A DNA stretch of 64,000 nucleotides from positions 602,001-666,000 of the forward strand of contig NZ_CP087598.1 of the NCBI RefSeq assembly GCF_020990385.1. Reading direction: 5' to 3'. Shown here piece by piece: positions 6,107 to 23,093 of this stretch (its first letter is position 1; each line of letters opens with the position of its first letter). The notes beneath the pieces are model-generated. The model ran no database searches. It saw only the letters and a program-made list of their open reading frames with translations, and had not been told where the DNA came from. A program made the translations under genes and the position numbers. The stretch is from Paracoccus sp. MA. Lineage in GTDB: Bacteria > Pseudomonadota > Alphaproteobacteria > Rhodobacterales > Rhodobacteraceae.

Positions 6107-6787
6107 TCAGCTTGCGCCCTTGCTTGCCGGCAGGTGGTGCAGCAGGGACGAACAGGCGCCCATGATATGGGCATAGACCAGCGCGCCCGCCTTTTCCGCA
6201 TCGCCCGCCCGGCAGGCGGCGAGGATCTCGCGATGCTCGCGGTCGGCCGTGCCCTGGCCGTGCGACAGGGCCAGCTGGATGCGCAGGTAACGCTCCAGCC
6301 GGTCGTTCACCGAGCGGATGGTGCTGACCAGGAACGGCCGCTGCGCATCCAGATAGAGGCAGCTGTGGAACTGCCAGTTCAGCGCCGACCATTGCGCGAC
6401 ATCGGTTTCCCGCGCGAAGGCGTCGCAGAACGCCTCGGCATCGGTGAAGGTCTCCAGCGTCATATGCGGCACCGAAAGCTTGATGGCGGCCGATTCCAGG
6501 ATGGCGCGGGTCTCGAAGATCTGGGCGATCTCGGGCTCGGAAACCGCGGTGACGATGGCGCCCTTGTTGCGCTGGAACTCGACCAGACCCTCGGCCTCCA
6601 GCCGCTTCAGCGCCTCGCGGACCGGGATCTTGCTGACGTTGAACATCCTTGCGACATCGTCCTGGCGGATCGGCTCGCCCTCGTCCAGCGTGCCGTCGGC
6701 GATGGAATCGCGGATGAATTTCAGGATGATGTCCGAGGCGGTGGGGGCTTTCCCGAGATTGGGGACCTCTGCATCCTTGAATGGCAT
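6107..6787 (-). CDS. GntR-family transcriptional regulator, FadR/FCD subfamily
   Basis: This 226-residue regulator has a winged helix-turn-helix at residues 18-75 (IRQDDVARMFNVSKIPVREALKRLEAEGLV) and an all-helical FCD ligand domain with the usual metal-site pattern (Asp/His near residues 120-205, including the late EHREIL segment). I chose the ATG at 6787, which has GGGGGAAG upstream and fits the family N-terminus; the longer frame reads through the promoter region. It is divergent from the proline-racemase-family gene at 7006, and the likely operator lies between them. It probably represses that gene and the binding-protein gene at 20895 until a catabolite binds. Confidence 0.9.
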   Translation of the reverse strand: MPFKDAEVPNLGKAPTASDIILKFIRDSIADGTLDEGEPIRQDDVARMFNVSKIPVREALKRLEAEGLVEFQRNKGAIVTAVSEPEIAQIFETRAILESAAIKLSVPHMTLETFTDAEAFCDAFARETDVAQWSALNWQFHSCLYLDAQRPFLVSTIRSVNDRLERYLRIQLALSHGQGTADREHREILAACRAGDAEKAGALVYAHIMGACSSLLHHLPASKGAS

Positions 6788-6903
6788 TCTGCTTCCCCCA
6801 GCTGCGCGGCTGCACGGGCAGGAAGATATGGTAGCCGATATTCCCCCGCAAGAGGATGCCGCGCCCGGAGAAGGTGCGGGCTGTGACGACTCGGGAAGCG
6901 CGC

Positions 6904-6957
6904 TTGACGGGGCAGGGCGAAACCGGCAATGTAGTAAAGAGATATCGTATACGAAAT
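6904..6957 (+). promoter_or_regulatory. Promoter with probable GntR operator TCGTATACGA
   Basis: A TTGACG box (6904-6909) is followed about 40 bp later by the perfect palindrome TCGTATACGA (6945-6954) flanked by ATA and AAT. The half-site GT...AC with a central AT fits operators of FCD-type GntR proteins. The site would cover the transcription start. The same arrangement recurs at 20710-20766. Confidence 0.7.
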
Positions 6958-7005
6958 ACCAACATGTGGCCAGCCCTGCCTGTCCGCAATGATCGAGGAA
7001 AACCA

Positions 7006-8034
7006 ATGCGCACATCCAAGGTCGTGCATGTCGTGTCCTGCCATGCCGAAGGCGAGGTCGGCGATGTCATCGTCGGCGGTGTCGCCCCGCCGCCCGGCGA
7101 GACGGTCTGGGACCAATCGCGCTGGATCGCCGAGGACGAGACCCTGCGGAACTTCGTGCTCAACGAGCCGCGCGGCGGCGTGTTCCGCCATGTCAACCTG
7201 CTGGTGCCGCCCAAGGACCCGCGCGCCCAGATGGGCTGGATCATCATGGAGCCGGCCGACACGCCGCCCATGTCGGGCTCGAACTCGATGTGTGTGGCGA
7301 CGGTGCTGCTCGATACCGGGATCATTCCCATGCAGGAGCCGATCACCCGCATGGTGCTGGAACCGCCGGGAGGGCTGATCGAGATCGAGGCCGAGTGCCG
7401 CGACGGCAAGGCCGAGCGCATCCGGGTCCGCAACGTGCCCTCCTTTGCCGACAGGCTGGACGCGCGGATCGAGGTCGAGGGGCTGGGCACGATCACCGTG
7501 GACACCGCCTATGGCGGCGACAGCTTCGTGCTGGTCGATGCGGCTGCGCTGGGGCTGGAACTGCGTCCCGACCAGGCCCGCGACATCGCCCGGATGGGCG
7601 TGAAGGTAACCGAGGCCGCCAATGAACAGCTGGGCTTCAAGCATCCCGCCAATGATTGGGACCATATCTCGTTCTGCCAGATCACCGACCCTGTGCAGAT
7701 GAAGGACGGGGTGCTGTGGGGCAAGAATGCCGTGGCGATCCGTCCCGGCAAGCTGGACCGCTCGCCTTGCGGCACCGGCTGCTCGGCGCGGATGGCGGTC
7801 TTGCATGCCAAGGGCCGGATGAAGGCCGGAGACCGCTTCGTCGGCACCTCGCTTCTGGAGACCGAGTTTCATTGCCGGATCGACAGCGAGATCGACCTGA
7901 ACGGCAAGCCGGCGATCCGTCCGATCATCTCGGGCCGGGCCTGGATTATTGGGACGAAACAGTTGATGGTCGATCCGGCGGATCCGTTCCCGGGCGGCTA
8001 TCGCCTGTCGGATACCTGGCCGATGGATCGATAG
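7006..8034 (+). CDS. Proline racemase superfamily enzyme, Ser/Cys type (probable trans-3-hydroxy-L-proline dehydratase / 4-hydroxyproline epimerase)
   Basis: This 342-residue protein is a proline racemase superfamily member. The first catalytic position is Ser90 (in MSGSN) where racemases and 4-hydroxyproline epimerases carry Cys in MCGHG; the second is Cys255 in SPCGTG. From what I know of the superfamily, Ser/Cys members act on trans-3-hydroxyproline and sometimes epimerise 4-hydroxyproline, so a strict proline racemase is unlikely. The start at 7006 fits the family; the frame is open 150 nt further upstream through the promoter. The next gene encodes a likely pyrroline-2-carboxylate reductase, which supports the dehydratase reading. 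The upstream GntR operator suggests induction by the substrate. Confidence 0.85.
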
Positions 8035-8200: not shown

Positions 8201-9148
8201 ATGACAAGCAAAAACGCCCCGCAATTCCTGTCCTATGACGATGCGATCGGCCGGCTGAACTGGCCCGATGCCGTCGAGGCGTTGCGGCAGGGCCACGGGC
8301 TGCCCCCGGCCGAGATCAGGGACGTGTTCCTGGGTCCGCCCACCGGCACGATGATGAGCCGCTCGGCCTGGATCGAGGGGCTGGGCTACGGTGCCAAGAC
8401 CTTCACCGTCTTCGACGGCAATGCGGCGCGGGGGTTGCCCACGGTCCAGGGGGCGATGCTGGTCTTTGACGGCGAAACCGGCACGCTGCAGGCCATCGTG
8501 GACAGCCCGCTGGTCACCGAGATCAAGACCGCCGCCGATTCCGTTCTGGCTGCCAGCCTGCTGGCGCGCCCGGACAGCCGGCACCTGCTGATTGTCGGCG
8601 CCGGCACGGTCGCGACCAGTCTGGTCAAGGCCTATACCGCGGTGCTGCCGGGGATCGAGCGCGTCTCGGTCTGGTCGCGCCGCCCGGAACAGGCGCGGAA
8701 CCTCGTCGCCGGCCTGGACGGAATCGAGGCCGAACTGGTGGCGGTGCCCGACCTGCAAGACGCGGTCGGAGAGGCCGACATCGTCTCTTCGGCCACCATG
8801 GCGCGGCAGCCGGTCATCCTGGGCGATTGGGTCCGGGCCGGCACCCATGTCGACCTGATCGGCGCCTTCAAGGCCGACATGCGCGAGGCCGACGATGCGC
8901 TGATGGCCAAGGCGGCGCTGTTCGTGGACAGCCGCGCGACCACGCTGGGCCATATCGGCGAGCTGTTGCTGCCCATCGCCTCGGGCGCGATCACCGCCGA
9001 GAGCGTGCTGGGCGATCTCTATGACCTGGTGCGTCCCGGCGCCCGCCGGCGGCAATCGGAGGACGAGATCACCGTGTTCAAGAACGGCGGCGGCGCGCAT
9101 CTGGACCTGATGATCGCGTCCTGGATCGCGCGCGTGATGGCGGAGTGA
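8201..9148 (+). CDS. Ornithine cyclodeaminase/mu-crystallin family protein, probable delta1-pyrroline-2-carboxylate reductase
   Basis: This 315-residue protein has the OCD/mu-crystallin fold: an N-terminal dimer domain, a Rossmann motif (LLIVGAGTVATSLV) in the middle and the family C-terminus. Members without true cyclodeaminase activity reduce cyclic imines such as pyrroline-2-carboxylate to proline with NAD(P)H. Next to a hydroxyproline dehydratase-like gene this is the best reading: 3-hydroxyproline is dehydrated to pyrroline-2-carboxylate, then reduced to L-proline. The ATG at 8201 has AAGAAGGAA upstream. A 166-bp gap separates it from the preceding gene. Ornithine cyclodeaminase or alanine dehydrogenase activity cannot be excluded. 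Confidence 0.82.
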   Translation: MTSKNAPQFLSYDDAIGRLNWPDAVEALRQGHGLPPAEIRDVFLGPPTGTMMSRSAWIEGLGYGAKTFTVFDGNAARGLPTVQGAMLVFDGETGTLQAIVDSPLVTEIKTAADSVLAASLLARPDSRHLLIVGAGTVATSLVKAYTAVLPGIERVSVWSRRPEQARNLVAGLDGIEAELVAVPDLQDAVGEADIVSSATMARQPVILGDWVRAGTHVDLIGAFKADMREADDALMAKAALFVDSRATTLGHIGELLLPIASGAITAESVLGDLYDLVRPGARRRQSEDEITVFKNGGGAHLDLMIASWIARVMAE

Positions 9149-9477: not shown

Positions 9478-10887
9478 ATGAGCAATCAGTCATTCCTGGC
9501 CGATGTGAACGAGATGTTCGACGTCGCGGCCTCGCGCTGCGACTTGCCCGAGGGGCTGGCCGAGAAGATCAAGGTCTGCAACGCGACCTATGTGACCCGC
9601 TTCGGCGTGCGGCTGCGCGGGCGGATGCATACCTTCACCGGCTGGCGGGCTGTCCATTCGACGCATAGCCGCCCGGCCAAGGGCGGCATCCGCTTCGCCC
9701 CCAATGCCGACCAGGACGAGGTCGAGGCGCTGGCGGCGCTGATGACCTATAAATGCGCGCTGGTGCGGCTGCCCTTCGGCGGCTCCAAGGGGGCGCTGCG
9801 GATCGACCCCGCCGACTGGACCGAGACCGAGCTGGAAAAGATCACCCGCCGCTTCGCGCAGGAGCTGATGGCGCATGAATTCCTCAGCTCGGCCGCCAAT
9901 GTGCCGGCGCCGGACATGGGCACGGGCGAGCTGAACATGATGTGGATCGCCGACGAATACCGCCGCGCCCGGCCGCAGGACATCAACGCGCTGGGCTGCG
10001 TCACCGACAAGCCGGTCGGCGGCGGCGGCATCGAGGGCCGCACCGAGGCCACCGGCCGCGGCGTGCAATATGCGATCCGCGAATTCTTCCGCCATCCCGC
10101 CGACCGCGCCCGCGCCGGGTTCCTGTCCGAGAGCCTGACCGGCCTGGCCTGCGTGGTGCAGGGCCTTGGCAATGTGGGCTTCCACGCCGCCAAGTTCCTG
10201 TCGCAGGAGGATGGCGTGCGCATCGTCACGGTGATCGAACGCACGGGCGTGGTGCGCAATCCCCAAGGCATCGACATCGACGCGCTCAAGGCGCATCTGG
10301 TGCAGACCGGCTCGGTCGAGGGCTTTACCGGCGGCGCGGTGAGCCGGTCCGACATGGGCGCGCTGGCCGACGAATGCGACATCCTGATCCCCGCCGCCGC
10401 CGAGGGCGCGATCACCGCCGAAAATGCCGCCGCCATCAAGGCGGCGCTGATCGTCGAGGCCGCCAACGGCCCCACGACCAACGCGGCCGACGCCATCCTG
10501 CGCCAGGCCGGCAAGATCATCCTGCCCGACCTCTTTGCCAATGCCGGCGGCGTGGTGGTGTCCTATTTCGAATGGGTGAAGAACCTCAGCCACATCCCCT
10601 TCGGCCTGATGGAGCGGCGGCTGGAGGAGGACGAGCACCGGCTGCTGGCCCGCTCGCTGGAGCAGATGACCGGCCGGGACTTTCCCAGCGAACATGCCCG
10701 CTTTCTGGAGGCGCGCAGCGAGATCGCGCTGGTCCGCTCGGGCCTCGACGACATCATGCGCGCCGCCTATCGCCGGATGAGCGCGCTGTGGAACCGTCCC
10801 GACGGCAGCTATCCGGACCTGCGCACCGCCGCCTATGTGCTGGCCATCGACGAGGTGGCGCAGGCCTACAAGGCGATCGGGCTTTAG
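9478..10887 (+). CDS. Glu/Leu/Phe/Val dehydrogenase family, probable NAD-dependent glutamate dehydrogenase
   Basis: This 469-residue protein has the amino-acid dehydrogenase fold: the substrate domain with the glycine-rich LPFGGSKGAL loop carrying the catalytic lysine, KGGIRFAP, and the conserved VPAPDMGTG; then a Rossmann domain with VQGLGNVG near residue 230. The length and the GGI...GRTEATGRG segment fit glutamate dehydrogenases. It converts glutamate to 2-oxoglutarate and ammonium, the expected last step when proline-type compounds are used as carbon and nitrogen source. GGAGGAGG precedes the ATG. It may be read from its own promoter or through the hairpin just upstream. Confidence 0.92.
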   Translation: MSNQSFLADVNEMFDVAASRCDLPEGLAEKIKVCNATYVTRFGVRLRGRMHTFTGWRAVHSTHSRPAKGGIRFAPNADQDEVEALAALMTYKCALVRLPFGGSKGALRIDPADWTETELEKITRRFAQELMAHEFLSSAANVPAPDMGTGELNMMWIADEYRRARPQDINALGCVTDKPVGGGGIEGRTEATGRGVQYAIREFFRHPADRARAGFLSESLTGLACVVQGLGNVGFHAAKFLSQEDGVRIVTVIERTGVVRNPQGIDIDALKAHLVQTGSVEGFTGGAVSRSDMGALADECDILIPAAAEGAITAENAAAIKAALIVEAANGPTTNAADAILRQAGKIILPDLFANAGGVVVSYFEWVKNLSHIPFGLMERRLEEDEHRLLARSLEQMTGRDFPSEHARFLEARSEIALVRSGLDDIMRAAYRRMSALWNRPDGSYPDLRTAAYVLAIDEVAQAYKAIGL

Positions 10888-11035: not shown

Positions 11036-12514
11036 TTACAGCTGGCGATAGACCCGTGCGGTGTCGGCCTCGAAATGCCGCAGTTCGTCCTGTCGGCGCG
11101 CCTCGGACCAGCCGAGGCTGGCGGCGGCGATGCGCGACAGCGCCTCGGCCCGGCCCCGGCCCAGATCGGGCTCCAGCCCGTCCGGCAGGCGGCGGCGGAT
11201 GAGGTCCGAGAGCCGCACGACATGTTCGCGGGCCGCTATCTGGCCGATGCCGTCGTCATGGGTTTCGGGCGCCGGAATGGCGCCCGTGGGTTCCGGTCCC
11301 TGCCGTCCCAGACGGTTTTCGACCGCCCGCGCCACCTTCCGCGCCGCGTGGCGATGCAGCATGATGGTCGAGCCGGTGACGGCCAGCAGGCCGGGCATCG
11401 CGGGATCCTCGGCCACCTCGACCGGCAGGCTGGTGGTCCGGCCGTCGCGGGTCGAGGTCGGTCGCACGCCGCACCAGCAATGCAGCACATCCGCCCGCGT
11501 CAGGTGCAGGTCGGGGAACAGGTGGTTGGCCTCGGCGAGGATATAGTCGATCTCGGCGTCCTCGACGCGGATGTCGTCGGGATTGGCCGTGACTTCGGTT
11601 TCGGTCGGGCCGATGAAATGGAAATCGCGCCAGGGAAAGACGTAATAGGGCTCGCCCTTGCGGGAAAAGGCCTCCAGCCCCTGGCCGCGGAACGCCTCGG
11701 GCAGGCGCAGCATGACATTGACGCCCTTGATGCCGATCACCCGGCGCCGGCCCGCACCGCCGCCCGGCACGCGGTCGATCCAGGGGCCGGCGGCGTTCAC
11801 TACCATGCGGGCGCGGACCTGCGCCCGGCCCTGCATCTCGGGCGCGCGTTCGTCCAGCGTGACCAGCCAGCCCTTGCCCTCGCGCGCGATGGCCGTCACC
11901 TCGGCATAGGTGCGGAGGGTGGCGCCGCGCCGCTCGGCATCCAGCGCGGTATCGACGCAGATGCGCTCGGGCCAGGCATACATGTATTCCTCAAACACCC
12001 CCACGCCGCGCAGCGGCCCGCCCAGGGCCGCGGCCATGGCGCTTTCGCGCGCCGCCTGCGCGGGCGCAAGCCGGCGATAGGCCAGCGGCACCCGCCAGCC
12101 GTCCAGCGCCTCGACCAGGCGGAAGCCCAGATCGACCAGCCAGGGCGGATAGCGGTCGCCCTTGCGGAACGGATAGTGAAAGCGGTGTTTCGTCAGGTGG
12201 CCGGGCATGTCGCGGACCAGTTCGGCCCGGCAGCGCATGACGTCGCGGGTGTAGAGCAGGCGGCGCAGCATGTCGGCGGGCCGAAAGGGCATCTGCCACA
12301 GCGGATAGCGCGCGGCGAGATAGCCGAGACCGGAATAGAGCATGCGGCTGGAGCGCGACGAGGTGCCGGCGCCGATATCGCCACGGTCGACCAGCAGGGT
12401 GCGAAAGCCGCGCCCGGCCAGTTGCCGGGCGCTGGCGCAGCCGACCGCGCCAGCGCCGATGACGATGACGTCGTATTCCGTCCCGTCGAGGCTGGTAAGG
12501 GCAGGCCGCGTCAC
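11036..12514 (-). CDS. GlpD-like FAD-dependent oxidoreductase (DAO family)
   Basis: This 492-residue flavoprotein starts with an FAD-binding motif (VIVIGAGAVG, residues 16-25) followed by GAGTSSRSSRMLYSGLGYL, which closely resembles the glycerol-3-phosphate dehydrogenase signature. A second FAD segment (VVNAAGPWID) and the C-terminal GlpD-like region (TSTRDGR ... AVTGSTIMLHRHAARKVA) are present. It oxidises some small substrate and passes electrons to quinone or an electron carrier. It is the last gene of a five-gene operon with a betaine-type ABC transporter and a ProC-like gene (4-nt ATGA overlap), so the substrate may be a betaine or amino-acid derivative rather than glycerol-3-phosphate. 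Confidence 0.75.
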   Translation of the reverse strand: MTRPALTSLDGTEYDVIVIGAGAVGCASARQLAGRGFRTLLVDRGDIGAGTSSRSSRMLYSGLGYLAARYPLWQMPFRPADMLRRLLYTRDVMRCRAELVRDMPGHLTKHRFHYPFRKGDRYPPWLVDLGFRLVEALDGWRVPLAYRRLAPAQAARESAMAAALGGPLRGVGVFEEYMYAWPERICVDTALDAERRGATLRTYAEVTAIAREGKGWLVTLDERAPEMQGRAQVRARMVVNAAGPWIDRVPGGGAGRRRVIGIKGVNVMLRLPEAFRGQGLEAFSRKGEPYYVFPWRDFHFIGPTETEVTANPDDIRVEDAEIDYILAEANHLFPDLHLTRADVLHCWCGVRPTSTRDGRTTSLPVEVAEDPAMPGLLAVTGSTIMLHRHAARKVARAVENRLGRQGPEPTGAIPAPETHDDGIGQIAAREHVVRLSDLIRRRLPDGLEPDLGRGRAEALSRIAAASLGWSEARRQDELRHFEADTARVYRQL

Positions 12515-13299
12515 GCCGGACCCTTCGCCATGCGCCGCGCCTTGTCGGTCGCCGCCTCCAGCGCCGCCACGACGGCGCGGCTGAAACCTGCCGCCTCGGC
12601 GGCCTCGATGCCGGCGGCGGTGGTGCCGCGATAGTCGCGATAGGCGGCGAGCATGGCGGGCGCTTCGCTGATCCGGCCTTCCAGCAGCCGCGCGCCGCCG
12701 ATGACGGCGGCCTCGGCCGCGCGCCAGGCGATGGCCTCCGAGATGCCCTGCGCCCGCATGAACCCGGCCATCGCCACGGCCATCAGCGCCGGATAGGCGG
12801 CGCCCGAGCCGGGCAGGGCGGTCATCAGGTCGATCTCGGCCTCGCTTGCCAGTTCGTCGGTGGTGCCGATGGCGGAAAGCAGGCGCCGCACCGTGTCGCG
12901 GTCGGAATCCGTCACGCCCTCGGCGGCCCAGAAGGGCGAATAGGAGGCCCCGATCTCGGCCGCGGCATTCGGCATGACCCGCACGATCCGGCCGCCGCAG
13001 CGGGCCAGTTCGCGGGCATCCACCCCGGCCATGAAGGACAGGACCAGCCGCCCCTCGGCCCGCAGCGCCAGCCCCGGCCAGTCCTCGGGCCGCACCGAGA
13101 CCACGACCACGTCGCTTTGCGCCGTCAGATCGGCCACGTCCCGGGCCCAGACCACATCGGCATGGCCGTGATAATCGGGACGCGGCCCGCTGCGGTTCAA
13201 GAGCACCAGATCGCCCGGCTGGACGATGCCGCGCGACAAGAGCCCCGCGCCAAGCGCCGAGCCCAGCCAGCCGGTGGCGCCGATGATGCCGATCCTCAT
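12511..13299 (-). CDS. Pyrroline-5-carboxylate reductase (ProC)-like NAD(P)-binding protein
   Basis: This 262-residue protein has an N-terminal Rossmann fold with an unusual dinucleotide loop (GIIGATGWLG rather than the common GAGNM) and a C-terminal ProC dimerisation domain with LPGSGAAYPALM, matching the substrate-binding GSGPAY segment of ProC. It would reduce a cyclic imine such as pyrroline-5-carboxylate or a relative. Its position inside a betaine transporter operon, with ATGA overlaps on both sides, points to a catabolic rather than a biosynthetic role. The altered nucleotide loop leaves cofactor preference open. Confidence 0.78.
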   Translation of the reverse strand: MRIGIIGATGWLGSALGAGLLSRGIVQPGDLVLLNRSGPRPDYHGHADVVWARDVADLTAQSDVVVVSVRPEDWPGLALRAEGRLVLSFMAGVDARELARCGGRIVRVMPNAAAEIGASYSPFWAAEGVTDSDRDTVRRLLSAIGTTDELASEAEIDLMTALPGSGAAYPALMAVAMAGFMRAQGISEAIAWRAAEAAVIGGARLLEGRISEAPAMLAAYRDYRGTTAAGIEAAEAAGFSRAVVAALEAATDKARRMAKGPA

Positions 13300-14339
13300 G
13301 CGCTCGCCGCGACGTTGCCCGTATAGGCGTTGATGGCGTTCTGGAACGGGATGACGCCGAGGGTCTGGCCTTCCGGGTTCTTGACGCTCAGCGCCTGGAG
13401 GCGGTTTGCCGCCATGTGCTGGAGCGCCTCGGCGACCGTGGCCTCGGGGGCGATGGCGGCCTCGGGCAGGCTGTCGAAGCCGTGCTCGGCCACCATGACC
13501 GCGCCGACCTTGAGCACCCGGCCGCGGTCGACATGCTGCACGAAATTCGCCACGTAATCGTCGGCAGGACGCAGCACGATGTCCTGCGCCGTGCCCTGCT
13601 GGATGACGCAGCCGTCGCGCAAAAGCGCGATGCGGTCGCCGATGCGCAGCGCCTCGTCGAGGTCGTGGGTGATGAAGACGATGGTCTTGCGGACCTCCTG
13701 CTGCAGGTCCAGCAGGACCGTCTGCATGTCGTAGCGGATCAGCGGATCCAGCGCCGAATAGGCCTCGTCCATGAGCAGGATCGGCGCGTCGTTGACCAGG
13801 GCGCGCGCCAGGCCCACCCGCTGCTGCATGCCGCCCGAAAGCTGGCTGGGATAGCTCTTCTCGAAGCCGGAAAGCCCCACCCGCTCGATCCAGCGCATGG
13901 CGGTGCGGTAACGTTCGGCCTCGGGCACGCCCTGCACCTCCAGCCCGTAGGCGGCGTTGTCCAGCACGGTGCGATGCGGCAGCAGCGCGAATTTCTGGAA
14001 CACCATCGCGGTCTTGTGGCGGCGGAAGGCGCGCAGCGCCTCGGGCGGCATGGCGACGACGTTCTGCCCCTCGATGACGATCTCGCCCGCGGTGGGCTCG
14101 ATCAGCCGGTTGATGTGGCGGATCAGCGTCGACTTGCCGGAACCCGACAGGCCCATGATCACCTGGATGCTGCCCGGCGCGATGGAGATGTTGATGTCGC
14201 GCAGGCCCAGCACATGGCCGTGGCGGGCCTGCAGCTCGGCCTTGGTCATGCCGGCGCGCACCGCCTCGACATGCGCCTCGGGCGCGGGGCCGAAGATCTT
14301 GTAGAGATTGCGGATCTCGATGCCGATCGGATCAGCCAT
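13296..14339 (-). CDS. Glycine betaine/proline-type ABC transporter ATP-binding protein (ProV-like)
   Basis: This 347-residue ATPase has Walker [11 protein letters not shown]-loop FQKFALLPH, signature LSGGMQQR and Walker B ILLMDEA with the following H-loop THD. The insert before Walker A ([16 protein letters not shown]) is typical of ProV/OpuAA, and the C-terminal 60 residues form a CBS-like regulatory part. It energises uptake of quaternary amines such as glycine betaine, proline betaine or related solutes. The ATG at 14339 overlaps the upstream permease stop by 8 nt, and its own stop overlaps the ProC-like start. Confidence 0.93.
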
Positions 14340-15219
14340 GACCCACCTCGCGATGTTTCTGCAGCCGCTTGCCCCAGGCCTGGCTGATGCGGTCGAAGAG
14401 GATGGCGATGCCGACGATGGCGAAGCCGTTGAACAGGCCCAGGGTGAAATACTGGTTGTTGATGGCGCGCAGCACCGGCTGGCCCAGCCCCTGCACACCG
14501 ATCATCGAGGCGATCACCACCATGGCCAGCGCCATCATGATGGTCTGGTTGATGCCGGCCATGATGGTGGGCAGCGCCAGCGGCAGCTCGGCCTTGACCA
14601 GCTTCTGCCAGGCCGAGGAGCCGAAGGCGTCGGCCGCCTCCAGCACCTCGCGGTCGACCTGGCGGATGCCCAGGTTGGTCAGCCGGATCATCGGCGGCAG
14701 GGCATAGATCACCACGGCGATCAGCCCCGGCACCCGGCCGATGCCCAGAAGCATCACCACCGGGATCAGGTAGACGAAGCTCGGCATGGTCTGCATCACG
14801 TCCAGCACCGGGTTCAGCACCGCCTGCACCCGCTGCGAGCGCGACATCAGGATGCCCAGCGGCAGGCCGATGGCGATCGACAGCAGCGTCGCGGCGAAGA
14901 TCATCGACACGGTCTTCATCGTGTCGTCCCACATGCCGAACAGCCCGATCAGCACCAGGGTCAGCAGGCTGCCGATCACCACGCGCAGGCTGCGGCTGGC
15001 GCTCCAGGCCAGCGCCGCGACCACCAGCAGGACAAGCGGCCAGGGCGCGTTGGTCAGCAGCCGCTCGGACCAGATGAGGAAACTTTGCAGCGGGCTGAAA
15101 AAGCCCTCGATGCTGTCGCCGTAGTTGCGGGTGAACTGGCGGAAACCCTCGTCGATGACCCGCTTGAGGTCGCGAAGATAGCCGTCGTCTAGCTGGGGGA
15201 AGGAAGTTAACCATGCCAT
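14332..15219 (-). CDS. Glycine betaine/proline-type ABC transporter permease (ProW-like)
   Basis: This 295-residue inner-membrane permease has about six to seven hydrophobic segments and the cytoplasmic coupling loop EAADAFGSSAWQKLVKAELPLALPTIMAGI, a typical EAA motif. The N-terminal 45 residues are soluble and amphipathic as in ProW. It forms the channel of the importer with the ATPase at 13296-14339 and the binding protein at 15298-16299, in one operon on the minus strand. Confidence 0.92.
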   Translation of the reverse strand: MAWLTSFPQLDDGYLRDLKRVIDEGFRQFTRNYGDSIEGFFSPLQSFLIWSERLLTNAPWPLVLLVVAALAWSASRSLRVVIGSLLTLVLIGLFGMWDDTMKTVSMIFAATLLSIAIGLPLGILMSRSQRVQAVLNPVLDVMQTMPSFVYLIPVVMLLGIGRVPGLIAVVIYALPPMIRLTNLGIRQVDREVLEAADAFGSSAWQKLVKAELPLALPTIMAGINQTIMMALAMVVIASMIGVQGLGQPVLRAINNQYFTLGLFNGFAIVGIAILFDRISQAWGKRLQKHREVGHG

Positions 15220-15297: not shown

Positions 15298-16299
15298 CTA
15301 GAGCGCGGCCTTGATGCGTTCCGCCGCCTCGGGCGTCACCCATTGGGTCCAGAGCTCTTCGTTCTCGCGCAGGAATTCCCGCGCCCCGTCCTCGCCCGTG
15401 GCCTGGTTGTCGGTCATCCAGGCCATCAGCTTGTTGACGGTCTCGTTGCTCCAGCTGCGCTTCGACAGGTAGTCGACGACGCCGGGATCGGCCGCCTCGG
15501 CGAAGGATTTCGACACCAGGGTGAAGACATTGTCGATCGGGAAGGCGTTCGGCTTGGGATCGGGGCAATCCGCGACCGAGGTGCAGCGCCGCCATTCCTC
15601 GACATCGTGCTCCATGCCGAAATCGACCGCGACCATGTCGTATTTGCCCAGAAGCGAGGTCGGTTCCCAGTAGAAGCCCAGCCATGGCGCCTGCTGCTCG
15701 TAGGCGCGGGCGATCGAGCCGTCGAGCCCGGCGGCCGAGCCGGTATCGACCAGGGCGAAGCCCTTGCCCTCGATGTCGAAGGCCTTGGCGAGCTGCGTGG
15801 TGACCACGGTGCCGCCCCAGCCGGCCGGGCCATTGTAGACCGCGCCCTTCGAGACATCCTCGGGGGCCGGGAACAGTTCGGGATGGGCCAGGATCTCCTC
15901 GATCTTGTTCAGGTTCGGATGCTCGTCCAGCATGTAGCGCGGGATGAACCAGCCCTGCTTGCCGCCATCCGACAGCGAGCGGCTGAGCGAGACGATCTTT
16001 TCGTCCCGCAGCCCGGCCTCGACGATCTCGGGCATCAGGTCGACCCAGGCCTCGGGGACGATCTCGGGCTTGCCCTTTTCCACCAGCGAGGTGATCGAGG
16101 GCACGGTGTCGCCGGCGACGATCTCGGCGCTGCAGCCATAGCCTTCGTTCAGGATGAACTGGTCAAGGCTCGCCAGCACCTCGGCGCTTTGCCAGTTCAT
16201 GCTGGCGATGGTCAGGCTGCCGCAATCGGCCGAGGCGGTCCCGGCCAGCGCAGCGAACGGCAGGGCGAGGACGGTGCCAAAGAGATAGGATCGTTTCAT
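15298..16299 (-). CDS. Betaine/proline-type ABC transporter periplasmic binding protein (ProX/OpuAC-like)
   Basis: This 333-residue protein starts with a Sec signal peptide (MKRSYLFGTVLALPFAALAGTASA) and continues as an OpuAC-type ligand-binding domain; Trp residues in WVDLMPE, GWFIPRY, GWGG and FYWEP could form the aromatic cage that holds quaternary ammonium groups. Two cysteine pairs (near residues 26/55 and 238/245) may form disulfides. It is the first gene of the transporter operon and has a close paralogue at 20895-21896 that lacks its own permease and ATPase. The exact ligand cannot be told from sequence. Confidence 0.9.
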   Translation of the reverse strand: MKRSYLFGTVLALPFAALAGTASADCGSLTIASMNWQSAEVLASLDQFILNEGYGCSAEIVAGDTVPSITSLVEKGKPEIVPEAWVDLMPEIVEAGLRDEKIVSLSRSLSDGGKQGWFIPRYMLDEHPNLNKIEEILAHPELFPAPEDVSKGAVYNGPAGWGGTVVTTQLAKAFDIEGKGFALVDTGSAAGLDGSIARAYEQQAPWLGFYWEPTSLLGKYDMVAVDFGMEHDVEEWRRCTSVADCPDPKPNAFPIDNVFTLVSKSFAEAADPGVVDYLSKRSWSNETVNKLMAWMTDNQATGEDGAREFLRENEELWTQWVTPEAAERIKAAL

Positions 16300-16797: not shown

Positions 16798-17448
16798 TCA
16801 TGGCGCGGAGCCGGGACGGGGCCCGGGCTGGGACATGAAACGCGCATTGAAGCGCGCCAGTTCGCGCGGCTCGGGGCGCTGGCCGGTATAGATCTCGACA
16901 TAGGTGGGAATGCGGGCCAGCCGCGTCTCCAGCTCCTCCCGGGCGCGCATCGAGATATAGCCGATCTGCGTCAGGTAGATGGTGCGGGCGCGGACATCGG
17001 CCTCCTGCTCTCCATGTCCCCAGCGCACCAGCATGTCGCGCAGCGCCCCCAGCCGCGTCTCGTCCGCCGCCTCGATTCGCGCCGCCACCTTGCCGTCCTG
17101 CAAGGCCCAGCTGCGCACCGCGAATTCCAGCCGCGCATCGAAGGCCCCGGACAGGAAACAGGCCAGCACGTTCAGCATCGCCTCGGCCTGGCTGTCGGCA
17201 TATTCCCGCGTCGCGGCGACGAAGGGCCGGGTGGTGCGCGCCTCCCAACCGTCGATCAGCGCGGTCAGCAATGCCTCGCGATCCTCGAAGAACCAATAGA
17301 AGCTGGTGCGCGACAGATTCAGCTGCCGGGCCAGCGGCAGGATCTTCACCGCGTCGATGCCGCTGTCGATCAGCGCCTGGTAGCCGGCTTCCAGCCAGCC
17401 CTCGCGCGACCCGCGCCAGCCGGTTTCGGGGGCAATATGGGTTTCCAT
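16798..17448 (-). CDS. TetR-family transcriptional regulator
   Basis: This 216-residue regulator has an N-terminal TetR helix-turn-helix (residues 12-60: GWLEAGYQALIDSGIDAVKILPLARQLNLSRTSFYWFFEDREALL) and a helical ligand domain. It is divergent from the demethylase gene at 17594 with an AT-rich 145-bp gap between them, so that gene is the likely target; the downstream-facing transporter operon is a second candidate. The ligand is unknown; a betaine or demethylation product is the natural guess from context. Confidence 0.88.
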   Translation of the reverse strand: METHIAPETGWRGSREGWLEAGYQALIDSGIDAVKILPLARQLNLSRTSFYWFFEDREALLTALIDGWEARTTRPFVAATREYADSQAEAMLNVLACFLSGAFDARLEFAVRSWALQDGKVAARIEAADETRLGALRDMLVRWGHGEQEADVRARTIYLTQIGYISMRAREELETRLARIPTYVEIYTGQRPEPRELARFNARFMSQPGPRPGSAP

Positions 17449-17593
17449 GCCCCTGCATAGCCCGCGCGCCGATTCGCCTCAAGCGAATTGTCCATAGATG
17501 CATACTAAAGGATCACATATGATTTTTATATTGACACATGTGAACATTTCTTGCCTTCTTGGGGCAACGACTCCCACCCGCACAGGCAGAGCC
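17449..17593 (+). promoter_or_regulatory. Divergent TetR/demethylase promoter region, unusually AT-rich
   Basis: The stretch 17500-17550 is far richer in A and T than the surroundings. It contains TTGACA at 17531-17536, the palindrome CACATGTG at 17535-17542 overlapping it, and an ATCACATATGAT stretch at about 17512-17523. These are plausible operator and -35 elements for the TetR regulator; the -10 element is not clear. Confidence 0.45.
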
Positions 17594-19630
17594 ATGTCGA
17601 ACGATCCCCTTCTGCAGCCCTATCAGCTGAAGCACCTGACGCTGCGCAACCGCATCATGATCACCAGCCACGAGCCGGCCTATCCCGAGGACGGCATGCC
17701 CAAGGATCGCTACCGCGCCTATCACGTCGAGCGGGCGAAGGCCGGGGTGGCGCTGACCATGACCGCCGGCTCGGCCTCGGTCTCGCGCGACAGTCCGCCG
17801 GTCTTCAACAACATCCTGGCCTGGAAGGACGAGGTGGTCGGCTGGATGAAGAAGCTGACCGACGAATGCCACGACCATGGCTGTGCGGTGATGATCCAGC
17901 TGACCCATCTGGGCCGGCGCACGCGCTGGGACAAGGCCGACTGGCTGCCCGTCGTCTCGCCCAGCCATGAGCGCGAGGCGGCGCATCGCTCGTTCCCGAA
18001 GAAGATGGAGGACTGGGACATCGACCGGATCATCGACGACTATGTCGATGCGGCCGAGCGGATGAAGGCGGCGGGGCTGGACGGGCTTGAGATCCAGGCC
18101 TACGGCCATCTGATGGACCAGTTCTGGTCGCCGCTGACCAATGACCTCGACGGCCCCTATGGCGGCAGCCTCGACAACCGGCTGCGCTTCACCTTCGACG
18201 TGCTGCGCGGCATCCGCGCACGCTGCGGCGAGGATTTCATCCTGGGCGTGCGCTATACCGGCGACGAGGACCTGCCGGGCGGGCTGACGGCCGAGGACGG
18301 GCTGGCGATTTCGCAAAAGCTCAAGGACAGCGGGCTGGTCGACTTCCTGAACGTGGTCAAGGGCCATATCGACACCGATGCCGGGCTGACCGACGTGATC
18401 CCGGTGCAGGGCATGCGCAACGCCCCGCATCTGGACTTCGCCGGGCAGATCAGGAAGGCCACGGGCTTCCCCACCTTCCACGCCGCCAAGATCCCGGACG
18501 TGCCGACCGCGCGCCATGCCATCGCCTCGGGGTTGCTGGACATGGTCGGCATGACGCGGGCGCATATGGCCGACCCGCATCTGGTCCGCAAGGTCGTCGA
18601 GGGGCGCGAGGAGGACATCCGCCCCTGCGTCGGCGCGAACTATTGCCTCGACCGCATCTACCAGGGCGGCATGGCCTTCTGCCTGCATAATGCCGCCACC
18701 GGGCGCGAGGAGACCATGCCGCACACGATCCCGCCCGCCCCGGCGAAGAAACGCATCACCATCGTCGGCGCCGGTCCGGCCGGCATGGAGGCCGCCCGCG
18801 TCGCCGCCGAGCGCGGCCATGACGTGACGGTCTTCGAGGCCGCCGACCAGCCCGGCGGCCAGATCCGCCTGACCGCGCTGGACGAGCGCCGCCGCGAGAT
18901 GACCTCGATCATCGCCTGGCGCATGGCGCAATGCGAGAAGCATGGCGTGAAGTTCAGCTTCAACACCTTCGCCGATGCGGCCGACGTGCTGGCCACCGAG
19001 CCCGACGAGGTGATCGTCGCCACCGGCGGGCTGCCGCATGTCGAGGTGCTGGAGGCGGGCAACGAGCTGGTCTCATCCGCCTGGGACATCCTGTCGGGCG
19101 ACGTGAAGCCGGGCCGCAACGTGCTGATCTTCGACGATGCGGGCGACCATGCGGCGCTGCAGGCCGCCGACCTGATCTCGGCCACCGGTGCGGCGGTCGA
19201 GATCGTGACGCCGGACCGCAGCTTCTCGCCCGAGGTGATGGCGATGAACCTGGTGCCCTACATGCGCAACCTGCAGAAGCGCGACACCACCTTCACCGTC
19301 ACCTGGCGCCTCCGCTCGGTGGCGCGCGAGGGCAACCAGCTGCGTGCGCGCCTCGGCAGCGATTACGGCGCCTTCGCCCGCGAGCGCATCGTCGACCAGG
19401 TGGTGGTCAACCACGGCACGCGGCCGCTGGACGAGCTCTATTTCGAGTTGAAGCCGCTCTCCTCGAACCTGGGCGAGGTCGATTACGAGGCCCTGACCAC
19501 CGGCGGGTTGCAGGAGGTCCGCAAGAACCCCGAGGGCCGCTTCCGCCTCTACCGCATCGGCGATGCCGTCGCCGCCCGCAACACCCATGCCGCGATCTAC
19601 GACGCGCTGCGGCTGGTCAAGGACTTGTAA
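17594..19630 (+). CDS. N-methylproline / dimethylglycine demethylase-like flavoenzyme (StcD/DgcA family)
   Basis: This 678-residue enzyme joins an old-yellow-enzyme TIM barrel with FMN (residues 1-370: LTLRNRIMITSHEP, GSASVSRDSPPVF, HLGRR, GAHM-type DLVGMTRAHMADP, then a Cys cluster near residue 347 of the CVGANYCLDR type for a 4Fe-4S) to an NAD(P)/FAD pyridine-nucleotide domain (ITIVGAGPAGMEAARVAAERG near residue 395). This is the layout of dimethylglycine demethylase DgcA and N-methylproline demethylase StcD. Context (proline-directed enzymes, betaine transporter, no sarcosine oxidase genes) favours N-methylproline. The ATG at 17594 fits the family start; upstream codons come from the promoter. 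Confidence 0.85.
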   Translation: MSNDPLLQPYQLKHLTLRNRIMITSHEPAYPEDGMPKDRYRAYHVERAKAGVALTMTAGSASVSRDSPPVFNNILAWKDEVVGWMKKLTDECHDHGCAVMIQLTHLGRRTRWDKADWLPVVSPSHEREAAHRSFPKKMEDWDIDRIIDDYVDAAERMKAAGLDGLEIQAYGHLMDQFWSPLTNDLDGPYGGSLDNRLRFTFDVLRGIRARCGEDFILGVRYTGDEDLPGGLTAEDGLAISQKLKDSGLVDFLNVVKGHIDTDAGLTDVIPVQGMRNAPHLDFAGQIRKATGFPTFHAAKIPDVPTARHAIASGLLDMVGMTRAHMADPHLVRKVVEGREEDIRPCVGANYCLDRIYQGGMAFCLHNAATGREETMPHTIPPAPAKKRITIVGAGPAGMEAARVAAERGHDVTVFEAADQPGGQIRLTALDERRREMTSIIAWRMAQCEKHGVKFSFNTFADAADVLATEPDEVIVATGGLPHVEVLEAGNELVSSAWDILSGDVKPGRNVLIFDDAGDHAALQAADLISATGAAVEIVTPDRSFSPEVMAMNLVPYMRNLQKRDTTFTVTWRLRSVAREGNQLRARLGSDYGAFARERIVDQVVVNHGTRPLDELYFELKPLSSNLGEVDYEALTTGGLQEVRKNPEGRFRLYRIGDAVAARNTHAAIYDALRLVKDL

Positions 19631-19689: not shown

Positions 19690-20274
19690 ATGCCGCGACT
19701 GCAACCCCTGCAGGATTTCCTTGATATCGCCTTGCCCGCCATGCGGGCGCGCGCCCATGACGGCAATTCGCCGGCCTCGCTTCAGGGCATTTCCGAGGCA
19801 ATCCTTTCGGTTGGGGACCAAGGGGCGGCACCGGCCCGCCTGCCCGTGGTCGAGGCTTGGCTCGACACGGCTCTGGCCCGTCCCATGGAATACCAGGATC
19901 TTTCCGATCTTTCGCAGGCGATACAGCGGCTGACGCCGCTGCTGTGCTGGCGCAGGCGGACCGGCGACGCGACCGCCAGCGCGAATTTCGGCGAAAGCCA
20001 TGCCAATGCCATGCTGCTGGGCCCGGGCGGGATGGAGGAGCGCCGCGACCTGTGGATCGGCTTCAGCCTGCTTGCGCCGCAGACGCGCTATCCCGACCAC
20101 CAGCACGCGCCCGAGGAAACCTATCTGGTCCTGTCGCCGGGCCAATTCCGCAAACCGGGGCGCGACTGGTTCGAGCCCGGCGTCGGCGGCAGCTTCTTCG
20201 TGCCGCCAAACGCGGTTCACGCCATGCGATCCGGCGATGAACCGCTGTTCGCCCTCTGGGCGCTCCGGGTCTGA
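19690..20274 (+). CDS. DddQ/DddL-like dimethylsulfoniopropionate (DMSP) lyase family cupin
   Basis: This 194-residue protein ends in a cupin with the segment YPDHQHAPEETYLVLS and a later VPPNAVHAM. The spacing His139-Glu143-Tyr145-His177 equals the metal-ligand spacing I recall for DddQ (His125, Glu129, Tyr131, His163), and the helical N-terminal half fits the same family. Such lyases split DMSP into dimethyl sulfide and acrylate. It follows the demethylase gene after 59 bp with GGGAGG before the ATG, in the same direction. Whether DMSP or another betaine is the substrate is open; several related cupins have no proven lyase activity. Confidence 0.75.
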   Translation: MPRLQPLQDFLDIALPAMRARAHDGNSPASLQGISEAILSVGDQGAAPARLPVVEAWLDTALARPMEYQDLSDLSQAIQRLTPLLCWRRRTGDATASANFGESHANAMLLGPGGMEERRDLWIGFSLLAPQTRYPDHQHAPEETYLVLSPGQFRKPGRDWFEPGVGGSFFVPPNAVHAMRSGDEPLFALWALRV

Positions 20275-20563: not shown

Positions 20564-20574
20564 AGGCTTTCACC

Positions 20575-20608: not shown

Positions 20609-20709
20609 CGCGTCCCACCAAAGGACGCCCAAGGCGCGGGAGCCCAAAGCAGCCCGGTGCTTCATGCGCCACCATGGATGCACGCGGATTGCCGGAACCG
20701 AAGAACTTC

Positions 20710-20766: not shown

Positions 20767-20894
20767 GGCGATCAGAAGCGGGCGACGAGGATGAAGCGGC
20801 CAAAGGGCCCCCCGTAGCCAAGCCGTCCCGAGAACAGGGCAGGTAAAGACGCGGCGCGCCGCCCTGAAACAACGCCGCAGACAGGGAGATGGAA

Positions 20895-21896
20895 ATGCAA
20901 AGACTACTCGCTTCGACGGTCCTTGCCACTGGCCTTTCCGGCGGCGCATGGTCGGCTGCCGCGCAGGATTGCGGCAACGTGACCCTTGCACTGCATAACG
21001 TCCAGAGCGCCGAACTGCTGACCTATGTCGACAAGTTCATCCTCGAAAACGGTTACGGCTGCAGCGTCGAGACCATTCCGGGGGATACGGTTCCCTCGAC
21101 CACATCCATGATCGAGAAAGGCTCGCCCGACGTTTCCTCGGAAACCTGGGTGGACCTGCTGCCCGAGATCGTTCCGCAGGGGCTCGAGGACGGCAAGATC
21201 GTCTACGGCGCGCCGGCCCTGCCCGATGGCGGCATTCAGGGCTGGTGGATTCCGAAATACCTGGCCGATGCGCATCCCGAGATCAAGACGGTCGAGGATG
21301 CCCTGGCGCATCCCGAGCTTTTCCCGGACCCGGAAAACCCCAGCCGCGGCGTGATCTTCAACGGCGCCGAAGGCTGGGGGGCGACGGTTGTGACCGCGCA
21401 ATTGTTCAAGGCCTACGAGGCCGAGAAAAAGGGCTTCAACCTGATGCGGCCGGGCTCGGCCGCGGGCCTGGATGGCGCCATCGCCCGGGCCTATGAGCGT
21501 CAGGAAGGCTTCATCACCTATTACTGGGCGCCGACCGCGCTCTTGGGCAAATACCAGCTGGTGCAGCTGGAACCGAACGCCGAGCACGATCCGGTCGAAT
21601 GGAAACGCTGCATCACCAATCTCGATTGCGCCGACCCGAAGGTCACCGGCTGGCCCATCGACACGGTGATGACGGTGTTGACCAGGGATTTTGCCGACCG
21701 GACCAGCCCGGCGATCCTAGACTATTTCAACACCCGCGGCTGGAGCAACGACACCGTGGCCAAGCTGATGGCATGGCAGGGCGACAACCAGGCCATGGGC
21801 GAGGATGCGGCCGTGCATTTCCTGGAAGAGAACAGGGATATCTGGACGAGCTGGGTTCCTGCCGAGGTCGCGGAAAAGGTCGAAGCCGCTCTGTGA
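20895..21896 (+). CDS. Orphan betaine-type ABC transporter periplasmic binding protein (ProX/OpuAC-like)
   Basis: This ~333-residue protein has a signal peptide (MQRLLASTVLATGLSGGAWSAAAQ) and is a clear paralogue of the binding protein at 15298-16299: both share NVQSAE/NWQSAE, FILNEGYGCS/FILENGYGCS, WVDLLPEIV, TGSAAGLDG/PGSAAGLDG, DCPDPK/DCADPK and the same C-terminus. I prefer the ATG at 20895 to that at 20889, because the ribosome site AGGGAG abuts the earlier ATG. No permease or ATPase gene follows, so it most likely delivers a second ligand to the ProVW-like proteins of the neighbouring operon. It is the first gene behind the second GntR operator. Confidence 0.88.
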   Translation: MQRLLASTVLATGLSGGAWSAAAQDCGNVTLALHNVQSAELLTYVDKFILENGYGCSVETIPGDTVPSTTSMIEKGSPDVSSETWVDLLPEIVPQGLEDGKIVYGAPALPDGGIQGWWIPKYLADAHPEIKTVEDALAHPELFPDPENPSRGVIFNGAEGWGATVVTAQLFKAYEAEKKGFNLMRPGSAAGLDGAIARAYERQEGFITYYWAPTALLGKYQLVQLEPNAEHDPVEWKRCITNLDCADPKVTGWPIDTVMTVLTRDFADRTSPAILDYFNTRGWSNDTVAKLMAWQGDNQAMGEDAAVHFLEENRDIWTSWVPAEVAEKVEAAL

Positions 21897-22040
21897 CCAT
21901 GGCCGCTGCGTCATGGCGGATAAACCGGCCTTATGGTGCAGCGGTCCGTATTCCCTGATCCCTTTGGTTCGCCCGGCTGTCATCACCGGGCGCGCCTTTC
22001 CCATCCCGGCTTCAAGAACACCCCCTCAGGAGAAGCAAAC

Positions 22041-23093
22041 ATGGCGTTCAAGCGAATGATCCATGCCGTCGATACGCATGCCGGAACGCCGATGCGGGTG
22101 ATTACCGGCGGCGTTCCCCATATTCCCGGGCGCTCGTCCTACGAGAAGATGCAATGGCTGCAGGCCAATGACGACCAGCTGCGCAAGCTGATGCTGCGCG
22201 AGCCGCGCGGCTATGCGGCGCATTGCTGCAACATCATCGTGCCGCCCTCGCATCCCGATGCCGATGCCGGCTATATCATCATGGAGCAGATCGAATATCC
22301 GGTCATGTCCGGCGGCAATACCATCTCGGTCGTCACGGTGCTGCTGGAAATGGGCCTGCTGCCGATGAAGGAGCCCGTCACCGAGCTGGTGCTGGAGGCG
22401 CCGGCGGGGCTGATCCGGGTCCGCGCCGAATGCCGGGGCGGCAAGGTGACCAGCGTGACGTTCCGCAACGTGCCGGCCTTCGCCGCCCATCTGGATGCCG
22501 AGATCGAGGTGCCGCATCTGGGCAAGGTCCGGGTCGATGTCGGCTGGGGCGGCATGTTCTATGCCATCGCCGATGTCAGGCAGTTCCCCGGCTTGGAACT
22601 GATCCCCGAGCATGGCCGCGAAATCGCCCGCATCTCGGCGATGATCCGGCAGGCGGCGATCGAGCAGCTGCCGGTCGAGCATCCCGATTATCCGGGCGTG
22701 GGCATCACCATCTCGCAATTGTCCGGGCCGACGGACGATCCGAACGCGGATTGGAAGAACGCCGTAACCATGGCCTCGGGGGATTTCTCCTGGGACAATC
22801 CCGCGACCTGGACCGGCGCGCTGGATCGTTGCCCCTGCGGCACAGGCACCTGCGCCAAGATGGCGGTGCTGCATGCCAAGGGCGAATTGCCGCTGGACAA
22901 GAGCTTCCGGCACCAGGGCATTCTCGGCAACGTCTATACCGGGCGGCTGGTCGAGGAGACGGAGATCGCCGGCCGCCGCGCCGTGGTGCCGGAAATCTCG
23001 GGGGCCAGCTGGATCTGTGGGTTGAACACCCTGGTGCTGGACCATGACGATCCGTTTGCCGAAGGTTTCACGGTGGGGGATACCTGGGCGTAG
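22041..23093 (+). CDS. Second proline racemase superfamily enzyme, Ser/Cys type
   Basis: This 350-residue enzyme is related to the protein at 7006-8034. It carries Ser90 in MSGGN at the first catalytic position and Cys266 in CPCGTG at the second, so it too is of the Ser/Cys class, not a Cys/Cys racemase. It has an extra acidic/aromatic insert near residues 228-258 (SGPTDDP ... FSWDNPATWTG). AGGAGAAG precedes the ATG. It lies 144 bp behind the orphan binding protein, probably in the same GntR-controlled transcript. Likely activities are 3-hydroxyproline dehydration or 4-hydroxyproline epimerisation, perhaps on a different stereoisomer from the first enzyme. Confidence 0.83.
   Translation: MAFKRMIHAVDTHAGTPMRVITGGVPHIPGRSSYEKMQWLQANDDQLRKLMLREPRGYAAHCCNIIVPPSHPDADAGYIIMEQIEYPVMSGGNTISVVTVLLEMGLLPMKEPVTELVLEAPAGLIRVRAECRGGKVTSVTFRNVPAFAAHLDAEIEVPHLGKVRVDVGWGGMFYAIADVRQFPGLELIPEHGREIARISAMIRQAAIEQLPVEHPDYPGVGITISQLSGPTDDPNADWKNAVTMASGDFSWDNPATWTGALDRCPCGTGTCAKMAVLHAKGELPLDKSFRHQGILGNVYTGRLVEETEIAGRRAVVPEISGASWICGLNTLVLDHDDPFAEGFTVGDTWA

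Follow-up and report, generated by a model that had tools for sequence, protein, structure and literature searches.

Gene content of the cluster

What does a gene cluster break down that places a betaine-type ABC importer and an N-methylproline demethylase beside putative 3-hydroxyproline enzymes and a cupin of the dimethylsulfoniopropionate (DMSP) lyase family? In Paracoccus sp. MA such a cluster lies within a 64,000-nucleotide stretch of contig NZ_CP087598.1 (positions 602,001 to 666,000, hereafter the window), and it is probably best explained as an eroded hpb-type Paracoccus cluster for proline-betaine import, demethylation and hydroxyproline work-up. Features are given with their positions in the window.

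6107..6787, minus strand: GntR/FCD regulator, divergent from PRS1; 94% identity in P. pantotrophus
7006..8034, plus strand: PRS1, proline-racemase superfamily, Ser/Cys; 638 bits to the trans-3-hydroxyproline dehydratase model NF047722, above its cut-off of 550
8201..9148, plus strand: ornithine-cyclodeaminase (OCD)-type imine reductase; PF02423; NF004793 282 bits, cut-off 322
9478..10887, plus strand: glutamate dehydrogenase (GDH); ELFV_dehydrog
11036..12514, minus strand: GlpD-like FAD-dependent oxidoreductase; PF01266 DAO; scores under the threshold for all NCBIfam models listed
12511..13299, minus strand: ProC-like reductase; PF14748; TIGR00112 145 bits, cut-off 197
13296..14339, minus strand: ProV ATPase; TIGR01186 345 bits, cut-off 327
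14332..15219, minus strand: ProW permease, from family scans
15298..16299, minus strand: BP1, binding protein of the OpuAC type; closest to RnDmpX (7yle) among solved structures
16798..17448, minus strand: TetR regulator, divergent from HpbA
17531..17549, plus strand: TTGACA box with overlapping palindrome of the ATGTGAACAT type, a putative operator for TetR in front of hpbA, from an upstream alignment of 22 loci
17594..19630, plus strand: HpbA/StcD-type FMN/4Fe-4S/FAD N-methylproline demethylase, OYE-type, from its domains and its identity to a PGAP-named HpbA
19690..20274, plus strand: DddQ-type cupin, labelled dimethylsulfoniopropionate lyase elsewhere; DMSP_lyase family PF16867, 165 bits
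20305..20563, plus strand: decayed etfB/etfA remnant inside a 614-bp gap (20275-20888)
20889..21896, plus strand: BP2, orphan binding protein of the OpuAC type; Trp35 of the cage replaced by Val, Tyr200 retained
22041..23093, plus strand: PRS2, Ser/Cys; 327 bits, failing the same cut-off of 550
23135..23626, minus strand: LysR gene, C-terminal half only; homology to the longer MKU1 copy ends near 23546

All fourteen cluster genes are open and intact with codon use of the coding type, the cupin gene scoring lowest of the fourteen (22), and for several the likely start lies inside the listed open reading frame. In orthologous comparisons dN/dS was 0.09-0.40 for 13 of the 14 genes, gdh having no partner there. 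Open reading frames, codon use and family scans bear out every part named in a previous sequence-only reading, in the families that it had given. The 4Fe-4S motif of HpbA was read by eye. A genomic island at the tRNA-Gly gene (5346-5419) was rejected, none of that gene's parts of at least 13 bases being repeated elsewhere in the window.

Relationship to the hpb and stc systems

The window demethylase is 96.8% identical over its full length to a protein on plasmid pPAN2 of Paracoccus pantotrophus DSM 2944 that NCBI (PGAP) annotation names HpbA, an N-methylproline demethylase, which upholds the idea of a catabolic route for N-methylated and hydroxylated prolines. Both clusters hold, in the same order, HpbA, the ABC importer, the ProC-like and GlpD-like enzymes, the TetR and GntR regulators, PRS1, the OCD enzyme, the cupin and BP2. 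The pPAN2 cluster is fuller and also carries HpbD (4-hydroxyproline betaine 2-epimerase, 806 bits against PDB 4e8g/4izg/4j1o), a Rieske oxygenase and its reductase, formaldehyde dehydrogenase (fdhA), an electron transfer flavoprotein (ETF; etfBA) and a second enolase-type enzyme nearest to cis-3-hydroxyproline dehydratase; all of these, together with two LysR genes and an MDR gene, are missing from the window, which in turn has GDH and PRS2 in addition. GDH occupies the slot of fdhA-hpbD-Rieske reductase-Rieske-LysR in P. pantotrophus, and the scar at 20305-20563 marks the position of the etfBA-LysR-MDR-enolase-type genes in relatives. Given the demethylase at about 97% identity and the same genes in the fuller pPAN2 cluster, the window holds a variant of the published hpb/stc system for proline and hydroxyproline betaines, and the combination is less novel than the sequence-only reading supposed. 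Zhao (2013) and Kumar (2014) reportedly described the hpb cluster, with proline betaine and 4-hydroxyproline betaine as its substrates; both studies are cited in PMC4113996 and PMC5144071, and passages of PMC11337228 also bear on them. A passage of PMC12239276 places stcD on pSymB.

The putative stachydrine region of S. meliloti pSymB shares TetR, the HpbA-type demethylase (candidate stcD), the cupin and a binding protein with the window; R. johnstonii, Shinella and Agrobacterium additionally share ProW, ProV and the ProC-like gene, and they keep ETF and glutathione-dependent formaldehyde genes, whereas the window does not. Further along R. johnstonii pRL12 lie hydroxyproline genes, a 4-hydroxyproline epimerase, Rieske genes and putA. 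Neighbourhood comparison, as had been proposed, shows that relatives of the cluster have HpbD, a Rieske oxygenase, ETF and genes for formaldehyde oxidation and for hydroxyproline, which also supports catabolism of N-methylated and hydroxylated prolines. Counts of HpbA loci refer to the 30 best-scoring loci per search, several of which end at contig ends (e.g. L169); in 7 of the 29 other Rhodobacteraceae loci a Rieske oxygenase or reductase lies no more than 1.5 kb from HpbA, and in Paracoccus SMMA_5_TC the order PRS-OCD-ProC-HpbA is contiguous.

Erosion of the cluster and putative regulation of hpbA

Family scans found no Rieske betaine demethylase or reductase in the window cluster, as first read, and HpbD is absent from it as well. 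A Rieske oxygenase copy at 96% is present on replicon C3 of the same genome, with no reductase gene beside it within the 20 kb examined; C3 also carries an HpbD homologue (67%) adjoining a Rieske pair (62%), and two etfB copies at 88% lie outside the cluster, whose own ETF is a remnant only. Because of the etfB/etfA scar and the Rieske gene on another replicon, the cluster is partly eroded, and loss or transfer is the likely cause of the missing Rieske gene. The cluster itself has neither a Rieske enzyme nor HpbD, an intact ETF or a formaldehyde dehydrogenase, so that it may have ceased to function as a single unit; this counts against the explanation given above. For the first methyl group the pathway would rely on a Rieske oxygenase whose gene lies at another place in the genome; HpbA would release the second as formaldehyde and pass the electrons to an ETF likewise encoded outside the cluster.

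The TTGACA box and palindrome upstream of hpbA are conserved in the alignment of 22 loci. The window holds one exact copy, before hpbA, and four other matches with 2-3 mismatches, which is chance level. The site is a putative operator through which TetR would control hpbA.

Putative hydroxyproline enzymes and the substrate

PRS1 and PRS2 are, as had been noticed, two Ser/Cys enzymes of the proline-racemase superfamily, with Ser in the first catalytic motif (MSGSN/MSGGN) and Cys in the second (PCGTG). PRS1 has an orthologue at 89% in P. pantotrophus. Its gene neighbours the OCD reductase gene, which suggests a module for trans-3-hydroxyproline to proline attached to the betaine cluster: 3-hydroxyproline would be dehydrated by PRS1 and reduced by the OCD enzyme to L-proline. 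The assignment is weakened by the passages available from eLife 2014 (PMC4113996), in which the trans-3-hydroxyproline dehydratases have Cys/Thr or Ser/Thr pairs, unlike the Ser/Cys pair of the window enzymes, and one characterised Ser/Cys group consists of 4-hydroxyproline epimerases; the curated dehydratase model may cover dehydratases of other types. PRS2 would lie in function between 4-hydroxyproline epimerase and 3-hydroxyproline dehydratase; its orthologue in Marinobacterium ramblicola (83%) adjoins OCD, DHDPS, ALDH and DAO genes. The GlpD-like FAD enzyme would be a (hydroxy)proline-type amino acid dehydrogenase, handling D-forms together with the ProC-like or OCD reductase, and GDH would convert proline-derived glutamate to 2-oxoglutarate.

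That the dedicated substrate is a 3-hydroxyproline betaine is rather unlikely. The dehydratase score of PRS1 speaks for it, as do the joining of PRS1-OCD to HpbA in P. pantotrophus, and likewise of PRS-OCD in SMMA_5_TC, and the presence of a putative 3-hydroxyproline dehydratase, of PRS type here and, in relatives, an enzyme nearest to the enolase type. However, free 3-hydroxyproline would suffice to explain PRS1-OCD, none of the literature on hydroxystachydrine or betonicine among the matches listed concerned such a pathway, and HpbD, which the fuller clusters carry, takes its name from 4-hydroxyproline betaine, so that 4-hydroxyproline betaine and proline betaine fit equally well.

Binding proteins and the question of DMSP

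The two binding proteins match the DMSP-binding protein DmpX (7yle) over nearly their whole length, with scores of 222 and 248 bits, and that the nearest solved relative of both is a DMSP binder speaks against a betaine cluster. However, neither fully matches the DmpX pocket W35 T64 W84 E113 W152 A153 Y200 W202, the corresponding residues being W T W Q W G F W in BP1 and V T W Q W G Y W in BP2. Thus BP1 keeps the Trp cage and is changed at 113, 153 and 200, with Phe at the DMSP-critical Tyr200, and BP2 is changed at 35, 113 and 153. In the part of PMC10030565 available, the Y200F exchange abolished DMSP binding by DmpX. We infer that both proteins bind such small quaternary prolines as proline betaine and the hydroxyproline betaines, and deliver them to ProWV.

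The alternative of a true DMSP lyase in a cluster that also imports DMSP is improbable. The cupin shares its fold and six active-site residues with the DddQ-type lyases, but its identity to DddQ is only 22-24% and its genomic company is different; family scans of the cluster found no gene for acrylate use or DMSP demethylation, TetR scored 21 bits against AcuR (cut-off 247), the BP1 Phe is the residue that abolished binding in DmpX and BP2 is without Trp35. Moreover, 213 of the 248 plasmid records matching the cupin come from Rhizobium or Sinorhizobium. DMSP catabolism was therefore set aside as the main reading on account of the lacking companion genes and the changed pockets. The DMSP-lyase-like cupin of the sequence-only reading stands as to fold and active site; DMSP as its substrate finds little support in the context.

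The cupin and its possible reactions

The cupin, with a helical N-terminal part, matches the DddQ fold over its full length, and DddQ Tyr120, His123, His125, Glu129, Tyr131 and His163 correspond to its residues 134, 137, 139, 143, 145 and 177. It lies directly 3' of HpbA in Paracoccus and on rhizobial plasmids, where it is annotated as DMSP lyase. Among 295 Rhodobacteraceae genomes, 11 have the cupin at E<=1e-15 and 151 have HpbA at the different limit of E<=1e-250. Most genomes with HpbA are thus without the cupin, which is not needed for demethylation as such, and a universal tie to HpbA is rejected. Among the best-scoring loci it lies within 1.5 kb of HpbA at none of the 29 family loci besides its own and at 2 of the 30 class loci (its own and L121). 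Outside Paracoccus, proline, HpbA or creatininase genes adjoin the cupin at 6 (L021, L025, L026, L027, L087, L088) of 17 loci (L021, L024-L033, L087-L092), and the other 11 have no recognised neighbour of these kinds. On a tree of 47 rows, from which the fragment G314 was left out and in which L082 and L085 are seemingly broken and form long branches, the HpbA label requires 10 changes, at least 5 of them forced by well-supported branches.

We tentatively take the cupin to act on (hydroxy)proline betaine or N-methylproline, either as an epimerase or racemase at C-alpha or as a 3-hydroxy dehydratase; with the same reserve, it may be a third fold for such a step, in addition to those of HpbD (enolase type) and of the PRS enzymes. 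The six DddQ residues are present in 44 of the 47 rows, the window cupin among them. For DddK it is proposed that the metal binds the carboxylate of the substrate and that a tyrosinate acts as the base taking the alpha-proton (PMC12582016), and Tyr131 is proposed to start catalysis in DddQ (PMC4437653). A PRS gene fills the cupin slot directly behind HpbA in 3 of the best 30 class loci, the order cupin-PRS-ProC occurs in one genome (L025), the cupin adjoins PRS2-OCD in Marinobacterium, and four rhizobial stretches have no annotated enolase-type HpbD. Against this, P. pantotrophus holds HpbD, the second enolase-type enzyme, PRS1 and the cupin together, and R. johnstonii pRL12 has cupins plus a 4-hydroxyproline epimerase further along, so that the idea of the cupin replacing HpbD in clusters without it is weakened. 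Creatininase, carnitine and sarcosine oxidase contexts require no such step, and the occurrence of the cupin beside creatininase genes and in unrelated surroundings also counts against the cluster explanation as a whole.

Another possibility, which we hold to be unlikely, is that the cupin acts once the amine has been oxidised and hydrolyses the iminium or a hydroxymethyl adduct with release of formaldehyde, much as RidA acts on imines. Recurrent neighbours are genes for amine oxidation or N-methyl amino acids: besides HpbA, DAO-type FAD enzymes (L080, L081, L195), creatininase with a creatinase/prolidase-family gene (L026, L027), and, in P. aminophilus, sarcosine oxidase, folD and purU. The cupin also sits between hpbA and etfB, with the rhizobial formaldehyde-oxidation genes coming next. 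However, a metal-tyrosinate site for alpha-proton removal is not obviously required for such hydrolysis, and many HpbA loci have no cupin.

To return to proton abstraction, the cupin, keeping the DddQ metal site and tyrosine base, would most likely bind a (hydroxy)proline betaine or N-methylproline at the metal and take its alpha-proton, with epimerisation or elimination of water as the outcome. A literature search found no paper joining DMSP lyase, cupin and hydroxyproline, and none of the matches listed had stachydrine together with a cupin; the link may be in print elsewhere.

Implications

Among the osmolytes of plants and algae are proline betaine and its hydroxylated derivatives, which are usable by rhizobia and Paracoccus, and the cluster illustrates both the joining of a known betaine pathway to 3-hydroxyproline breakdown and its erosion. 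A wider claim would be that the "DMSP lyase" family behind hpbA/stcD in Paracoccus and rhizobia consists of metal-tyrosinate cupins with a new activity, either C2 epimerisation or 3-hydroxy dehydration, towards (hydroxy)prolines that are quaternary or N-methylated, and thus represents a third unrelated fold for this kind of step after the enolase and proline-racemase types. The claim has perhaps one chance in three; were it true, many "DMSP lyase" annotations of soil bacteria would be wrong. As one small protein, the cupin offers a directly testable reaction, and an assay is needed before soil and nodule bacteria with genes annotated as DMSP lyase are counted among the producers of DMS.

Relation to the hpb system of P. 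pantotrophus

The sequence-only reading had taken the genes at 6107-23093 for a putative catabolic system for N-methylated and hydroxylated prolines that includes a DMSP-lyase-like cupin. Its gene list was borne out, with 14 intact genes of the named families in this span, and its interpretation was right in part, but the core proved to be an already known system: the OYE/FAD protein shares 96.8% identity, across its entire sequence, with a Paracoccus pantotrophus protein that is encoded on plasmid pPAN2 and annotated by NCBI as HpbA (N-methyl-L-proline N-demethylase). The plasmid carries the order gntR-prs1-ocd-(fdhA-hpbD-Rieske reductase-Rieske-lysR)-FAD enzyme-proC-proV-proW-bp1-tetR/hpbA-cupin-(etfB-etfA-lysR-MDR-enolase-type)-bp2, where prs denotes the proline-racemase-superfamily, ocd the ornithine-cyclodeaminase-type and bp the OpuAC binding protein genes. 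The genes common to pPAN2 and the window lie in the same order, the two blocks in brackets are without counterpart in the window cluster, and gdh and prs2 are present in the window only. Against PDB 4e8g, 4izg and 4j1o the pPAN2 HpbD scored 806 bits; for 2pmq and 4h2h the score was 526 bits. We take these to be the structures of the hpb papers.

The cluster is located on the 2.39 Mb contig C2, adjoined by a tRNA-Gly and flanked by a truA-like gene on one side and a trkH-like gene on the other (ORFs read by eye). The 14-gene span is followed by one truncated gene:

23135-23626, truncated LysR gene, CbbR-like, C-terminal half

A longer copy of this gene (258 aa) is found at a contig end in Paracoccus sp. 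MKU1. Upstream of hpbA, a TTGACA that overlaps a TG.ACA.T palindrome is conserved (columns with at least 85% agreement) across 22 aligned loci, which come from Paracoccus, other Paracoccaceae and rhizobia.

Predicted hydroxyproline enzymes

PRS1 scored above the trans-3-hydroxyproline dehydratase cut-off and its gene is adjoined by that of the OCD-type reductase, a neighbour that passages of PMC4113996 take as a mark of the t3Hyp route. The PRS1 assignment calls for caution, since the same passages of PMC4113996 place Ser/Cys pairs, as in PRS1 and PRS2, in a 4-hydroxyproline epimerase group. PRS2 scored under the dehydratase cut-off, and its orthologue in Marinobacterium ramblicola (83%) lies amid genes of both routes. 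The extra enolase-type enzyme of relatives comes closest to the model for cis-3-hydroxyproline dehydratase, scoring under the model's cut-off, and 2ps2 is its top-scoring solved structure. These findings lend some weight, short of proof, to the earlier suggestion of a 3-hydroxyproline betaine as substrate.

The source genome also carries a separate 4-hydroxyproline-type region (L095, C2:935000-954900) with two PRS genes and DHDPS-like and ALDH-like genes, and a proline-racemase-family fragment at G000:C3:189278 that covers the first 53 model positions only.

Binding proteins and the cupin

For both binding proteins the nearest solved structure is DmpX, the DMSP-binding protein, whose numbering is used here. 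BP1 retains all four cage tryptophans and has Gln113, Gly153 and Phe200, while BP2 has Val35, Gln113 and Gly153 and retains Tyr200. According to passages of PMC10030565, the Y200F exchange in DmpX abolished DMSP binding. Among 14 other aligned BP1 rows, position 200 is Phe in 11 and Tyr in three; P. pantotrophus has Tyr.

The closest named relatives of the cupin are from Paracoccus, which places the source genome in this genus. Chemistry at the alpha-proton of a proline-type betaine is the best, though unproven, reading of its role. At three loci (L125, L126 and L127) the slot directly 3' of HpbA, which holds the cupin in Paracoccus and rhizobia, is taken by a proline-racemase-family gene (65% to PRS1). 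Cupin relatives (47-50%) occur in two genera close to a creatininase and a creatinase/prolidase-family gene (L026, L027), and in R. johnstonii pRL12 (L192) a second DMSP_lyase-family cupin gene, RL_RS35515, lies behind etfA in the same cluster. HpbA copies at L085 (G352:C4) and L082 are accompanied by cupin remnants that lack some catalytic residues and are probably broken.

Erosion and retention of the cluster

By tblastn, the 614-bp gap behind the cupin holds the first etfB codons joined to the terminal portion of etfA, and this remnant is also shortened internally. P. siganidrum and P. pantotrophus have intact etfBA here, together with genes for LysR, MDR and an enolase-type enzyme; Paracoccus sp. 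MKU1 lacks etfBA at this place and has the other three. Contig C3 of the source genome encodes a Rieske oxygenase (96% identical) adjoined by a LysR gene 83% like that of the cluster; no Rieske reductase gene was found beside it in the 20 kb inspected. The genome has two etfB copies (at 88%) and a second betaine-type locus (L106, C3:38000-57900), where an HpbD homologue (67%) accompanies a Rieske oxygenase and reductase (62%). The etfB copies and the HpbD homologue beside this other Rieske pair could make up for what the cluster lacks. With four paralogous rows set aside and gdh finding no partner, dN/dS ranged from 0.09 to 0.40 in orthologous pairs for 13 of the 14 genes; thus the remaining genes of the cluster are under purifying selection.
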